Translations under genes and position numbers: made by a program
The notes under the pieces: model-generated
Told to the model about the DNA's origin: nothing
Seen by the model: the letters and a program-made list of their open reading frames with translations, nothing else
The model's database searches: none
Assembly (NCBI GenBank): GCA_944386525.1
Contig: CALXBL010000004.1
Coordinates: forward strand, 1-64,000
Source of the DNA: an uncultured Ruminococcus sp.
GTDB lineage: Bacteria > Bacillota > Clostridia > Oscillospirales > Ruminococcaceae
Direction: 5' to 3'
Length of the DNA stretch: 64,000 nt
In this document: piece by piece, positions 36,639 to 60,257 of the stretch
Layout: the number at the start of each line of letters is the position of its first letter
How positions within the stretch are numbered: position 1 is the first letter of the stretch

Positions 36639-39023
36639 CTATCTCGAGTCGATCAACATAGTTTTCATAACGCAAAGATCAAAAATATTGCACACCTTAT
36701 CGTCTGTAAGATCAGCCGATTGCGGTGCAGTGAGATTTTCCAGATTCAATAGGTATTTCTGAAGCATGACGCAATCGGCAATGCTGAATTTGCCGTCGGC
36801 GTTGACATCTCCTGCAATTGTCGTGTGGGTAAGTCGGATTTGTTTTAAAATAGAAGTTTCCCGATCAGTATAATAGACGCAATACAGGCTGCCATTGGCG
36901 CAGATCATTGAGGGCGAGTTGACAACTTCCATGGCAAGAGCATTTCCAATTGACTGCCACTGATCGTCCTGAAGCATATGCACAGAAAAAGAATCAGGAT
37001 TCTGGGTGACAGCGGCAAGATAAAGCACATTGCCGCCGAGTACCGGTTGGAGGAATAGCGGATTTGACACAATTTCTATTGGAAGTGTATGTGAAATAAT
37101 GGAATCACCGTTAAACTGATATACGGCGCTGCTGTCGCCTGTTGGAGTAATCCATGCGGTTGTATTGTCGGAAACAACGGAAATTGTACCGCAGGGATTA
37201 TTTGAAAGTGCAGCGATCTGCCAACTGTTATTTTCCAGAACCGCAATTTTTGGAATATTGCCTTCATCAATATCACGATATGCAATGATAGGCTCCCCAT
37301 TTATGACAGCAATGGACATATTACAGGCATTTGATGCGATATTGCTTCCTATTTCGGAAATTTCACCGGTGGTACAGTCATAGGCTGCAGCATTAAGCGC
37401 ATAGGGATAAGTACCGGTGGTGTAGGTCAGATAAAGCGTATTTTCAAATGCAGTTATTGCAACATACTGAACGAGAAAATCACTGTGATATACCTCCGTC
37501 CATGAATCAGACTGCGCATCATACCGGCAAAGACGCAGGTAATAATCATAATCATGATAAAGTACATAAGGCGTCTCGCCGACGAAGACAAGCCTTGGAA
37601 CATTTAAATCCATATATTCTCCACTTCCAAGAGGACTGCCGATGGAAATCAATTCTGAACCCTCAATGCGGTAAACCTCAGCAAAAGTACCGTCTGATGT
37701 CAGCAAATAGGGAACACCATTTTGTGATACGGCAAGCTGAGATGGAAGAGTATCTTGAATAACAGTTGTATCCAGTTCCTCCCACAATGCAGCCTCGGAG
37801 GTATCCGCAAATTCAATAGAAAAACTGAGAGATTCCCCGTCCATGGAAATATCAGAAATTTGAATGCCGCTGTTCATGCCATTGGAGTATACAAGGGCGC
37901 CGTCCTCAACACCGGCATTCCAGTCAAGCGAGCCGACAGAATCAGGCGCACCTTCACCGCCGTAGCAGGACAGGGAAAGATTTCCTTCGCCGGCATCCAA
38001 TTCAGTCTCATCGGGACGGAATACATAAATTTCATCCTGTGTGCCGTTGTAGTTGCCGCTCTGTTCGGTATTTACACGGTATACCACAAGACCGCTGCCA
38101 TATATTTTCACATCCAATTCATCTGAGTAGGGAGTACCCTGCTGACGGTACTCAAGAGCGAAAAATTCAGTGCTGGAAAGAGGCGTTTTAAGCAAATACA
38201 AACGTCTGCCGCTTTCTGACGACACTGGAGCAAGAGTATATGTACCGCTTTTGGAGATCTCCTCTGCATCAAGCCACCCGGAAACAGACGCTCGCTGGTA
38301 GGCAAGCGGATACTGTAAAAAGGTGGAATTCGACGCCATAATATCCCAGCTTCCGACAGGCACACCGGTGCGGTTATTTCGGTAGAGATCAGGATATCCA
38401 AGAGAATGCAGAAATTCGTGACACAAAACACCCACGCCTCCGGTAACCATTGTTTCAAAGAGCTGAGTGCTGTTGTGGAGGTTGACATCTCCAACAGGAA
38501 TGCCGCCGATTTCAGCACCATTGAGAAAAAACGCCTTTGGCCAGAGCAGTGCATTGGAATCCGATGCATCACCGGCAATCACGACCGTCACATTATCGAC
38601 ATAACCATCGCCATTGCCATCCAGTGGGATATCTGACGGAACAGTTACACCAGCAATAAGTTCATCTGCAAGCTCCTGACAATATAGATAATCAGATTCC
38701 GTACCCGAAAAAACATATGTTGTAATGACGCCGTCGGATAACTGAGGAAAATAACTTGTAACCTGTGTCTTGCCATAGGAAATGGCGTCCACATAACCGG
38801 CAAGGGAGCGTGGGGTATCGGTATCATTGCACATTGTGGCAATCTCCTCTACATAACCGTCCATAAAGTTTCCATCAGAAATAGGATCAAACTGTGCAAA
38901 CAGGACGATATTGCATAGCTGCTGAGGTGTGCTGGCAAATACAGGCTTTGGAATGCCCCAAACCGTGAGGATAATCGCAAAAACTACAATAAGCACTTTC
39001 CGAAAAATATATTCAACTTTCAT
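36639..39023 (-). CDS. Secreted M6-type metalloprotease with propeller-like repeats and C-terminal dockerin
   Basis: A 794-residue exported protein. Signal peptide about 1-31. The peptidase domain holds HEFLHSLGYPD at 203-213, the HExxHxxGxxD zinc motif of the immune-inhibitor-A (M6) family, with a following GSWDIMA stretch typical of M6. Residues about 420-730 consist of repeated strands (for example PYVLYHDYDYYLRL, EPIIAYRDI, SLYCVYYTD) that look like beta-propeller blades. The last 58 residues are a type I dockerin with GDVNADGKFSIAD as first calcium loop and a degenerate second loop. The dockerin should anchor it to a cohesin on the cellulosome. AAAGGTAG precedes the ATG. Confidence 0.9.
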   Translation of the reverse strand: MKVEYIFRKVLIVVFAIILTVWGIPKPVFASTPQQLCNIVLFAQFDPISDGNFMDGYVEEIATMCNDTDTPRSLAGYVDAISYGKTQVTSYFPQLSDGVITTYVFSGTESDYLYCQELADELIAGVTVPSDIPLDGNGDGYVDNVTVVIAGDASDSNALLWPKAFFLNGAEIGGIPVGDVNLHNSTQLFETMVTGGVGVLCHEFLHSLGYPDLYRNNRTGVPVGSWDIMASNSTFLQYPLAYQRASVSGWLDAEEISKSGTYTLAPVSSESGRRLYLLKTPLSSTEFFALEYRQQGTPYSDELDVKIYGSGLVVYRVNTEQSGNYNGTQDEIYVFRPDETELDAGEGNLSLSCYGGEGAPDSVGSLDWNAGVEDGALVYSNGMNSGIQISDISMDGESLSFSIEFADTSEAALWEELDTTVIQDTLPSQLAVSQNGVPYLLTSDGTFAEVYRIEGSELISIGSPLGSGEYMDLNVPRLVFVGETPYVLYHDYDYYLRLCRYDAQSDSWTEVYHSDFLVQYVAITAFENTLYLTYTTGTYPYALNAAAYDCTTGEISEIGSNIASNACNMSIAVINGEPIIAYRDIDEGNIPKIAVLENNSWQIAALSNNPCGTISVVSDNTTAWITPTGDSSAVYQFNGDSIISHTLPIEIVSNPLFLQPVLGGNVLYLAAVTQNPDSFSVHMLQDDQWQSIGNALAMEVVNSPSMICANGSLYCVYYTDRETSILKQIRLTHTTIAGDVNADGKFSIADCVMLQKYLLNLENLTAPQSADLTDDKVCNIFDLCVMKTMLIDSR

Positions 39024-40660: not shown

Positions 40661-42046
40661 TTACACAATAGGAAGAGCTGTGTAATGACCTGTCAGATGC
40701 TGCATTATAACAGTAACGTCCACATCGGACAGCTTTGCGTCGTATGAGCAGTCGCTGTTTGCGATCTGTTCAACATTCAGATGAACCACACCCACCAGAT
40801 ACTTGTGGAGAAGGATCGCATCTGCTACAGAAACTGAACCATCACAGTTGACATCGCCATAAACTGACGCATAAGCATCGTTTACGATAACGTCTGAACC
40901 GTTTGGAGCAGAAACCGCAAGTTTTGTTGTAGTTGTAGTTTCAGCAGTAGTATCTGCCGAAGTCGTTGTGGTAGTAGTCATCTCAGCGGAGGCTGTAGTT
41001 GACTCAGTAGTTGTAGTCGCTGAGGATACAGTAGTTGTTTCCGAAGAAGTAGTTGTAGTTTCAGCAGTCGTAGTAGTAGTCTCGGCTGTTGCAACAGGTA
41101 CCAGATACTGCATTGAGCAGTAGCCTGAATAGCCGCTGTAGTCTACAGCTGCCCAGTTATTGTTTGAAGTGGCAGTGACTGTAACAGTCGTGCTGTTTGG
41201 TATTTTTGTGATAATAGAGTAACTGGTACCGGGGCCGCTTCTCATGTAAAGAGCAGAAGCATTCACGGTGTATAAGCCTGCACCGTCGTCGGTAAATTCA
41301 ACATCGACGGCAACAGTCGTAGTAGTAGTAACTACCGTATTGTCATCTGTGACAGACTCATCGCTCCAACCAAGACCAAGGATATGGTTATAAACCATCT
41401 TTGTTCGTGAAACGAAAGCGCTGTTTGAGCCGTAGCTATCGTTCATAGCTGCTTTGTACATATCATCAAGAGTAACAGAAGCGTAGGAGCCAGTGTAGGA
41501 AGCTGCACGCTTAGCAATCCTTGATGCGATTCCACAGCCGAAATTGTAGATGTCGGCATAGAGGACGAGAGCGCCAGGATCAGTAATTCCCTTGTTCTGT
41601 CCTGTGATTATGTAACCCTGAACATCGTTAAGAGCGGTTTCGTCCTGAGCCTTGATTCCATATTCGGAACTCAAAAGGGCGGAAGCCGCAGCCTTTTCAG
41701 AAGAATTGAATGTACGATAACTCCAGCTGGATGCACTCATAATCTCATTGTAAAAAGAAGAACCGAGTGTTTCCTCTGCAAAGGAAGGACAAAGCTCACA
41801 GGTCTTTCTCATAAGAGCCAGTGCTCTGTCGGCGTGCCACTGAAGCTTTCCAACGCTTACAGCGCCGCAGTCGTTGGCGTTGATGGAGCCATATGATCCC
41901 TCGTGTGAGGTGATACATTCAATAGCGGTATTAGCCATTTGTTCCAGCGTTACCGCTGAAACGGACGCAGGCGTAGCCAGTGCAGACAGCATCAGTACGA
42001 GTGCAGTTGCGCAGGATAACCCGACTGCTAAGATTTTCTTAAACAT
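40661..42046 (-). CDS. Secreted lysozyme/chitosanase-like protein with SH3 domain, Thr-rich linker and dockerin
   Basis: A 461-residue exported protein with signal peptide (about 1-31). The N-terminal domain (about 32-240) contains ITSHEGSYGSINANDCGAVSVGKLQWH, whose Glu followed by an Asn-Asp pair and the GKLQWH turn resemble phage-type lysozymes and GH46-like folds; which glycan it cuts is not certain. A bacterial SH3 domain follows (YTVNASALYMRSGPGTSYSII..CSMQYL), then a Thr/Glu linker and a type I dockerin (YGDVNCDGSVSVADAILLHKYL..ISDVD). It would be carried on the cellulosome or its anchoring scaffold and act on cell walls. It has a long structured leader. Confidence 0.85.
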   Translation of the reverse strand: MFKKILAVGLSCATALVLMLSALATPASVSAVTLEQMANTAIECITSHEGSYGSINANDCGAVSVGKLQWHADRALALMRKTCELCPSFAEETLGSSFYNEIMSASSWSYRTFNSSEKAAASALLSSEYGIKAQDETALNDVQGYIITGQNKGITDPGALVLYADIYNFGCGIASRIAKRAASYTGSYASVTLDDMYKAAMNDSYGSNSAFVSRTKMVYNHILGLGWSDESVTDDNTVVTTTTTVAVDVEFTDDGAGLYTVNASALYMRSGPGTSYSIITKIPNSTTVTVTATSNNNWAAVDYSGYSGYCSMQYLVPVATAETTTTTAETTTTSSETTTVSSATTTTESTTASAEMTTTTTTSADTTAETTTTTKLAVSAPNGSDVIVNDAYASVYGDVNCDGSVSVADAILLHKYLVGVVHLNVEQIANSDCSYDAKLSDVDVTVIMQHLTGHYTALPIV

Positions 42047-42715: not shown

Positions 42716-42744
42716 TTGAAAAGGCCTCTGAAATCCGTTATAAT
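42716..42744 (+). promoter_or_regulatory. Sigma-A promoter of glycogen phosphorylase
   Basis: TTGAAA (42716-42721), 17 bases, TATAAT (42739-42744). Transcription would start near 42751, exactly where the first leader hairpin begins. Confidence 0.8.
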
Positions 42745-42750
42745 AAGTAT

Positions 42751-42928
42751 GTGGCATAATCGGCGCTCTTTGCCACAAAAAGGCGGCTCCGCAGATGGGA
42801 AGGAATAGAGAATAAGGAACAGCGAACGAATCCTTACGGATTGTTTGTTGCTCTTTGTTCTTTGTTTGCTCTTCCCCTGCGGAACGCAGCTTCCACAAAA
42901 TACAATACGCCGGAGAACGGAGATAAAT
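42751..42928 (+). promoter_or_regulatory. Structured leader of glgP with a 94-base hairpin
   Basis: The leader begins with a GTGGCA/TGCCAC hairpin (42751-42776). The region 42789-42882 folds back on itself almost completely: CCGCAG/CTGCGG and GGGAAG/CTTCCC at the base, then about 30 further pairs with a TTAC loop. About seven of these are G-T pairs that work only in plus-strand RNA, which suggests selection on the transcript and not on the DNA. There is no T run, so it is not a simple terminator. I do not know any RNA family with this shape upstream of glycogen phosphorylase. Confidence 0.6.
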
Positions 42929-45334
42929 ATGGCTGTTAAAAATTCAGCAAAGCGTTCAGAGCTAAAGGAGCAGTTCTTAGAAAGGCTCCAGCATGAGTGC
43001 AGCGTAACACCCAACGAGGCTTCTGACAAGCAGATATATCAGACGCTCTCAGAAATGATGGTTGAAAAGCTCAAGACCAAGCGCAGACAGTTTATTAACA
43101 AGGTACACTCAGAAGGCCGCAAGCAGGTATACTATCTTTCAATGGAGTTTCTTATGGGACGCTCCCTCAAGACCTCTATCTATAACCTGGAGCTTGCAGA
43201 GGATCTGACTGATATCCTCAAGGAATACGACATCAATCTTGAAAGAATCTTCGAGTGCGAACCCGATGCAGGTCTGGGCAACGGCGGTCTGGGCAGACTT
43301 GCTGCCTGTTATCTTGACGCTATGGCAACTCAGGAGATCCCGGCAAAAGGTCACTCTATTTGCTATGAGTACGGCATTTTTCAGCAGAAGCTCGAGGACG
43401 GCTGGCAGACAGAATTCCCCGATAATTGGCTCCCCGGCGGCAGCGTTTGGCTCGATCCCAAGCCCGATCAGGCTATCGAGGTACACTTCGAAGGCGATGT
43501 AAAGGAATACTGGCAGGATAATTATCACTATCTTTTCCATGAAAACTACAATACTGTAGTTGCAATTCCTTATGATCTCTATGTATCCGGATATGGCAGC
43601 AGCGGTGTATCAACACTCCGTCTATGGCAGGCAAAGGCTCCGAGCTTCGATATGAAGTCATTCAACGACGGCAACTATGCAAGCGCACTTAGCCAGAATT
43701 CTATGGCAAATGCCATCTCCAAGGTGCTCTATCCCAACGATAATCACCTGGAAGGTAAGTCACTGCGTCTGCGTCAGCAGTACTTCCTGTGTGCGGCAGC
43801 TATCGGCGACATTGTAAATCATCACATGAGTGTTTATGGTACACTCGACAACCTCCACGAAAAAGTTGCTATTCACATCAATGATACTCACCCGACTCTG
43901 GCAATTCCGGAGCTTATGCGAGTTCTTCTTGATGACTGCGGTTACACCTGGGAGCACGCATGGTATATCGTAACAAATACATTTGCATATACAAACCACA
44001 CTGTAATGGCAGAGGCTCTTGAAAAGTGGGATGTGAACCTCGTAAAACACGTTATTCCAAGAATCTTCCAGATAATCGTTGAGATAAATAACCGTTACTG
44101 CGCAAAGCTGTTCCAGAAGTACAACGGCAACAGTGCAAAGACTTCACGTATGTCCATCATAAAGGATAACCAGATCCATATGGCAACACTTTGTGTAATG
44201 GCGTCACACAGCGTAAACGGCGTATCAAAGCTCCACTCTGAGATCATCAAGGAGTCCGTATTCAACGAGGAATTTCAGGATACACCCGAAAAGTTCAAAA
44301 ATGTAACAAACGGTATTGCATATAGAAGATGGCTGTATCAGTCTAATCCAGGACTTACAAACCTACTCAGGCAGAAAATAGGCGACGGCTTCCTTATGGA
44401 CGGCGCAGAACTTAAGAAACTGCTTGCATTTGAAAATGATGCCGCAGTTCTCCAGTCACTCCAAAAGATAAAGAAGGAGAACAAGGAACGTTTTGCAAAG
44501 TATGTAAAGCATAAGAGCGGTATTATCATCAATACTGACAGTATCTTCGACGTACAGGTAAAGCGTCTGCATGAATACAAGAGACAGCACCTGAATGTAA
44601 TGAACATTCTGGCACAATATCAGTATCTGCTTGATAATCCAAATGCTGATTTCACACCTAAGACCTATATCTTTGCAGCAAAGGCTGCGCCCGGCTACTA
44701 TCTGGCAAAGCAGATAATCAAGCTTATCTGGGCTCTTTCTGAGGAGATCCGCAAGAATCCGAGAATCTCTGAAAAGCTGTCTGTATACTTCCTGGAGGAC
44801 TACAAGGTAACACTTTCTGAGCTGCTTATGCCGGCAAGTGATATATCGGAACAGATTTCTCTGGCAGGTACAGAGGCGTCCGGTACAGGCAATATGAAGC
44901 TCATGCTGAATGGCGCTGTTACACTGGGCACTCTCGACGGTGCAAATATCGAGATCGGTGATGCTGTAGGCGATGACAATATTCTTATCTTTGGTATGAA
45001 GACAGAGGAAGTAAATGCGCTTAAGGCACAGGGCTACAACCCGGAACATTATTATCACAACAACGGTATTATAAAGAACTGTATTGATCGTATGTACAGC
45101 GGCATAAACGGCTGCAAGTTTTCAGAGGTTGCAAACTCACTTAAGACAAGTGACCCATATATGGTGCTGGCTGACTTCGATTCCTACGCAGCAGTTCAAA
45201 CACGCAGCTCCGAGCTGTATCGTGACCAGAAGAAGTGGACTCAAATGTCACTCAGAAATATTGCAGGCGCAGGCATATTCTCAGCTGACCGTGCAGTAAA
45301 TGAGTACGCTCACGATATCTGGGGTATAAAGTAA
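42929..45334 (+). CDS. glgP: Glycogen/maltodextrin phosphorylase
   Basis: An 801-residue PLP enzyme releasing glucose-1-phosphate from alpha-glucans. Family motifs include YLSMEFLMGRSL, PDAGLGNGGLGRLAACYLDA, DTHPTLAIPELMR, VKRLHEYKRQHLN and the PLP lysine in EASGTGNMKLMLNG (about residue 656). Length matches bacterial GlgP. The start is the ATG at 42929 behind CGGAGAT; 28 more in-frame codons upstream would come from the hairpin leader and are not coding. No other glycogen gene is in the window. Confidence 0.96.
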   Translation: MAVKNSAKRSELKEQFLERLQHECSVTPNEASDKQIYQTLSEMMVEKLKTKRRQFINKVHSEGRKQVYYLSMEFLMGRSLKTSIYNLELAEDLTDILKEYDINLERIFECEPDAGLGNGGLGRLAACYLDAMATQEIPAKGHSICYEYGIFQQKLEDGWQTEFPDNWLPGGSVWLDPKPDQAIEVHFEGDVKEYWQDNYHYLFHENYNTVVAIPYDLYVSGYGSSGVSTLRLWQAKAPSFDMKSFNDGNYASALSQNSMANAISKVLYPNDNHLEGKSLRLRQQYFLCAAAIGDIVNHHMSVYGTLDNLHEKVAIHINDTHPTLAIPELMRVLLDDCGYTWEHAWYIVTNTFAYTNHTVMAEALEKWDVNLVKHVIPRIFQIIVEINNRYCAKLFQKYNGNSAKTSRMSIIKDNQIHMATLCVMASHSVNGVSKLHSEIIKESVFNEEFQDTPEKFKNVTNGIAYRRWLYQSNPGLTNLLRQKIGDGFLMDGAELKKLLAFENDAAVLQSLQKIKKENKERFAKYVKHKSGIIINTDSIFDVQVKRLHEYKRQHLNVMNILAQYQYLLDNPNADFTPKTYIFAAKAAPGYYLAKQIIKLIWALSEEIRKNPRISEKLSVYFLEDYKVTLSELLMPASDISEQISLAGTEASGTGNMKLMLNGAVTLGTLDGANIEIGDAVGDDNILIFGMKTEEVNALKAQGYNPEHYYHNNGIIKNCIDRMYSGINGCKFSEVANSLKTSDPYMVLADFDSYAAVQTRSSELYRDQKKWTQMSLRNIAGAGIFSADRAVNEYAHDIWGIK

Positions 45335-60212: not shown

Positions 60213-60257
60213 GCAGCAAAAGACTCCGCAGGATAATCCTGCGGAGTCTTTTGCTGC
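60213..60257 (+). terminator. Terminator of the cellulase gene
   Basis: A perfect inverted repeat with 20-bp arms (60213-60232 and 60238-60257); the T tract lies inside the 3' arm. It works on either strand in principle. Confidence 0.85.

Follow-up and report, generated by a model that had tools for sequence, protein, structure and literature searches.

A predicted pseudoknot at the ribosome-binding site of glgP in Ruminococcus and the variable hairpin in its loop

Upstream of the glycogen phosphorylase gene glgP of an uncultured Ruminococcus lies a very long hairpin, and this locus raises the question of whether that hairpin, or some other part of the leader, is the functional element. The window analysed here is the whole stretch of 64,000 nucleotides from this genome (G000), and the features of the leader, including the terminal hairpin P1, the long hairpin P2 and a helix between the P1 loop and the region of the ribosome-binding site (RBS), are given in Table 1. 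Judged from the position of the promoter, the glgP mRNA would begin at about 42751, at P1. Upstream of glgP, two large secreted proteins are encoded on the minus strand (36639-39023 and 40661-42046), both ending in dockerin-like modules (GDVNADGKFSIADCVMLQKYLL... and GDVNCDGSVSVADAILLHKYLVG...), which would be fitting for a fibre-degrading Ruminococcus. A perfect 22-bp palindrome with a gap of 1 nt (GCAGCAAAAGACTCCGCAGGAT) is present at 60213-60257 of the window.

Table 1. Features of the glgP leader and gene, in window coordinates
Feature	Position	Strand	Remarks
Sigma-70-like promoter of glgP	42716-42744	+	TTGAAA at 42716, 17 nt, TATAAT at 42739-42744; consensus scan, 11/12 matches
P1, 5'-terminal hairpin	42750-42777	+	TGTGGCA-TAATCGGCGCTCTT-TGCCACA; flank pairing against permuted partners
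Pseudoknot helix, 5' strand TCGGCG, within P1 loop	42760-42765	+	covaries with 42908-42913
P2, long hairpin, 45 pairs	42783-42887	+	folding; orthologue only in nearest species (G006)
P2, 5' arm	42783-42833	+	
P2, loop TTAC	42834-42837	+	
P2, 3' arm	42838-42887	+	
Loop 3, A-rich 3' part (AGCTTCCACAAAATACAATA)	42888-42907	+	A/U-rich before 3' strand in nearly all leaders
Pseudoknot helix, 3' strand CGCCGG	42908-42913	+	covaries with 42760-42765, 95.7% of cells paired; 15-18 nt to start codon in all leaders
RBS ACGGAG (relatives: ATGGAG)	42917-42922	+	5' of ATG at 42929; nearly invariant in alignment A1
glgP, glycogen/starch/alpha-glucan phosphorylase, 801 aa	42929-45334	+	TIGR02093, 1035.7 bits against a cut-off of 552.9

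The preliminary description of this DNA had reported one long stem with a TTAC loop at 42789-42882, lying between the glgP promoter and its ribosome site and not a plain terminator. Folding confirmed the stem over the slightly longer range of P2 (-58.4 kcal/mol, z -8.0, with none of 200 shuffles as stable), its placement agrees with both the promoter and the RBS, and no terminator-like site was found in the region between these two. The stem is interrupted by bulges, its arms consist of low-complexity purine/pyrimidine sequence, and the complementary strand reaches only -39.9 kcal/mol. P2 was among the most stable structures when about 1.2 Mb of its own genome was folded in 110-base windows, and it was one of very few stems of at least 30 positions with at most 3 mismatches, GT-rich repeats aside, in 2.2 Mb of fetched sequence. 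The same genome has another long stem-loop (G000:C27, about 275-385; L100), whose strands differ strongly in stability (-49.7 vs -29.7) and which precedes a T run, and a 130-nt almost fully paired hairpin of -78 kcal/mol lies 3' of glgP in another Ruminococcus (L161, 4171-4302).

Comparison of glgP leaders, gathered from 16 genomes of the genus, 80 loci of named genomes and two further genera, pointed to conservation around P2. P1, with a loop word (mostly of 6 to 7 bases) complementary to a word just 5' of the Shine-Dalgarno sequence, is present in G000 and 11 other members of the genus, and the same pairing was found in L134, L137, L138, L139, L161, L166, L168 and the genera g109 and g120. 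No such pairing was found in four members of the genus (G004, G005, G007 and G012), and G002, where the pairing is in a shifted register, was excluded from the count. About six leaders of genus g120 have the pairing reduced to 4-5 bp and a weak P1. In alignment A1, which comprises 31 leaders from several Ruminococcaceae genera chosen after the pairing was seen, 95.7% of the helix cells are paired, against 23-51% in slid controls; this choice of leaders inflates the percentage, but has no such effect on the double changes or on the fixed site. Both positions vary in five of the six pairs, and the doubly changed cells number 17 vs 3.5 in shuffles (0/500 as high; the null is shuffling and is not tree-aware). 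The first pair appears as U-A, U.G, A-U, G-C and C-G across leaders, and variants of the two strands include CCAGCA/TGCTGG, CCGACG/CGTCGG and CCGGCA/TGCCGG. Among 32 leaders, the P1 flanks also pair better with their own partner (mean 15.4) than with permuted partners (9.1, sd 0.72, 0/500).

In these 32 leaders the distance from the 3' strand to the ATG is fixed at 15-18 nt, and the loop between the two strands measures 24-173 nt. The 3' strand sits a few bases 5' of the glgP Shine-Dalgarno sequence, and the helix ends before reaching it. Loop pairing with a downstream single strand, compensatory changes and a 3' strand at a fixed site beside the RBS together identify the glgP leader, at the level of sequence comparison, as a predicted H-type pseudoknot, with P2 occupying the loop between its strands (loop 3). 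The RBS-side motif occurs once per genome, at glgP only, in the seven members of the genus with the exact motif. In a sample of 298 genomes of the family its hits include the glgP of two more genera, where its own pairing partner is present, but in other genera the pattern is also found inside genes or before unrelated genes, so that the motif is specific only within the genus. When one mismatch was allowed, the P1 loop motif gave scattered chance hits elsewhere, and in several genomes the reversed motif used as a control gave about as many. A blind scan in which every hairpin loop was compared with the RBS region for complementarity likewise returned chance pairings in other leaders and was not discriminating alone; since such complementarity is common by chance, the case rests on the compensatory changes and the position.

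Loop 3 is far more variable than the elements that enclose it. The long hairpin is found in G000 and its nearest species (G006) only; other members of the genus have loop 3 hairpins of differing length and sequence, some relatives have none, several relatives from other genera have a loop 3 of about 14-35 nt that is A/U-rich and mostly unstructured, and that of genus g120 is somewhat longer and weakly structured. An A-rich stretch directly 5' of the 3' pseudoknot strand is present in nearly all leaders. By this comparison, conservation within the glgP leader is lowest in P2. The preliminary description had seen in the hairpin the mark of selection on an RNA structure and had proposed that glgP leaders of relatives be examined for covariation; selection on structure holds for the glgP leader, in which the flanking pseudoknot is conserved and covaries, and the long hairpin itself, with an orthologue in G006 only, fails the conservation test beyond one sister species.

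P2 is not a repeated element. BLAST over the whole of its own genome returned no second copy, and the only other significant DNA match in the 16 genomes of the genus was the orthologous G006 leader (75% over 67 bases, E 8e-5). With a covariance model built from the G000 and G006 hairpins, only those two scored above 40 bits, the remaining hits reaching at most 27 bits and being mostly terminators. The search for further copies put forward in the preliminary description, where many of them were to indicate a mobile repeat, has thus left P2 as single-copy by both methods, without the several related genome copies that characterise MITE- or REP-like elements. It is unlikely that P2 is a palindrome of chance or mobile origin (MITE-like or a simple-sequence inverted repeat), inserted into a tolerant loop 3 and without a role there. 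Its low-complexity arms, the very different inserts that loop 3 tolerates and the presence of another low-complexity palindrome in the genus (G011, L316) would suit such an origin, but there is one copy only in its genome and genus, and two species have it in the orthologous place with pairing largely preserved. A target-site duplication could not be shown, and loop 3 of the relatives was too diverged for an empty site to be aligned.

We consider it quite unlikely that P2 is itself regulatory, for example as an RNase III site or as double-stranded RNA bound by a protein, and was selected for pairing in the plus strand. Such selection would be in keeping with the far greater stability of the plus strand (-58 vs -40) and with the 7 G.U pairs against 1 A.C opposition in the G000 stem. 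Among the 9 differing positions in the aligned G000 and G006 hairpin cores, 8 are transitions, of which 7 preserve plus-strand pairing (one-sided binomial 0.035), a pattern that selection for the plus-strand RNA could have produced, though it is not a strong sign of it. The wobble bias noted in the preliminary description, with about seven G-T pairs, is one-sided in G000 as stated, but it is weak as an argument (one-sided binomial p ~0.035) and absent in the sister species, where the orthologous stem has 4 G.U and 2 A.C and is equally stable on both strands (-32.6 and -33.2). Against a regulatory P2 there is also the fact that its orthologue is confined to that one species, others having an unrelated hairpin or none in an otherwise preserved leader.

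The reading that we favour, and hold to be fairly probable, is that the H-type pseudoknot leader controls the translation of glgP, with P2 as a compacting insertion in its loop. The P1 loop, with the consensus NCGGCG, would reach over the long loop 3 to pair with the word CGCCGN, located a few bases 5' of the Shine-Dalgarno sequence, and P2, an optional arm of loop 3, would fold away about 100 nt and bring the pseudoknot strands together. Because P2 would only need to fold, its sequence would be free to vary. Docked at the edge of the RBS, the pseudoknot would most likely lower or gate access of the 30S subunit to glgP; as the helix stops short of the Shine-Dalgarno sequence, occlusion would be indirect. 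With structure at its 5' end, the glgP mRNA should also be protected, and the leader probably tunes the amount of glycogen phosphorylase in Ruminococcus-type gut bacteria. We found no description of RNA-level control of glycogen breakdown genes in gut Firmicutes, and a covarying, gene-exclusive pseudoknot at the glgP RBS is a concrete candidate for it. The locus also illustrates that a species-specific long hairpin can mimic a functional element when what is conserved is a short helix formed at long range around that hairpin.

A more specific role, as a new riboswitch or protein-sensing leader dedicated to glgP and coupling glycogen breakdown in Ruminococcaceae to a cell signal such as a glycolytic sugar phosphate, with loop 3 freely elongated and here carrying a 105-nt arm, seems to us distinctly doubtful. 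Hardly any unpaired bases outside the RBS are conserved in alignment A1, which argues against an elaborate ligand pocket and would favour a protein site, or a structure acting simply as a valve, over an elaborate aptamer.

It is very improbable that the flanking halves form a DNA operator, an inverted repeat bound by a transcription factor: a CGGCG/CGCCG inverted repeat does lie near the promoter, but P1 covaries as well, and halves that are free in their spacing (24-173 nt), the second keeping its 15-18 nt to the start codon and not to the promoter, fit an RNA and not an operator, which is disfavoured on these grounds. CsrA controls glycogen genes in E. coli, and glg control of this type is found in enterobacteria; the GGA motifs found within the RBS and close to it (AGAACGGAG) would suit a CsrA-type repressor site, but csrA was not found in the G000 assembly, from which 8% is missing, and is present in 1 of the 16 genomes of the genus (with working controls), and this extremely improbable reading was rejected for G000.

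The glgP pseudoknot leader is apparently undescribed. In searches of Rfam 15 with cmscan, covering the window leader and the loci of eleven relatives, no glgP leader scored above the gathering threshold of any family, including preQ1-I, preQ1-II, SAM-II and the L20 leader, and nothing relevant to a glgP leader RNA was found in the open-licence literature, in line with the earlier remark that no RNA of such form before glycogen phosphorylase was known. Its overall arrangement resembles that of the SAM-II riboswitch, which has an H-type topology near the RBS, and differs from it in gene and sequence, with no Rfam match. Pseudoknots in ribosomal-protein leaders (such as L20 and S15) are translational mRNA leaders as well, serving as autoregulatory sites for RNA-binding proteins; unlike these partners, GlgP is not, to our knowledge, an RNA-binding protein. 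The preQ1 class II riboswitch (RF01054) is a translational pseudoknot with its 3' strand at the RBS, and it has an extra hairpin outside the binding pocket. It differs in its HLout topology and in having the Shine-Dalgarno sequence inside the pseudoknot (PMC11625349), which in the glgP leader, again without an Rfam match, lies outside the helix. The preQ1 class I riboswitch (RF00522) is a 5'-leader H-type pseudoknot in which P1 is short, loop 3 is rich in A and the 3' strand lies at the Shine-Dalgarno sequence or beside it, and it controls translation by partial or indirect occlusion (PMC11625349). Indirect occlusion has been described for its type I, and in preQ1-I pseudoknots loop adenines contact the minor groove of P1 (PMC11625349). 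The glgP leader differs in lacking an Rfam match, in preceding a gene that is not queuosine related, and in its long loop 3 with a variable hairpin and few conserved unpaired bases.

Other relatives have glgP leaders of different architecture. In a second type, that of R. flavefaciens (L164, L170 and L174-L201), a helix joins ACCGCTTGTA to TACAAGCGGT, about 60 nt further 3', and is followed, directly 5' of AGAATGGAG, by a hairpin that covaries (GCCGC/GCGGC, GTCAC/GTGAC, GTCGC/GCGAC). Doubly changed cells in this type numbered 22 vs 9.8 in shuffles, L174 had no Rfam match, and in class B leaders the RBS-proximal hairpin was the only structure that RNAalifold recovered. A third type (L140, L142-L145, L147, L151, L153-L160, L163, L165, L169, L172 and L180) has GAAAGGAG and then a hairpin, for example CGCTCC...GGAGCG, between the Shine-Dalgarno sequence and the start codon, in which CTCC could pair with either the Shine-Dalgarno sequence or the downstream GGAG. 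None of the three architectures had an Rfam match in the loci tested. These findings point to structured leaders as a common feature of the glgP RBS in the family, perhaps with more than one origin.

Near the glgP of one locus, on the opposite strand, a c-di-GMP-I riboswitch was identified (L272, 2499-2582; 73.4 bits). In two species of one genus (L263 and L264), a uracil phosphoribosyltransferase-like gene has a leader with GTCCGGCGGC, and CGCCGGAGAATGGAG before the RBS, so a similar pairing of loop and RBS is possible at another gene.
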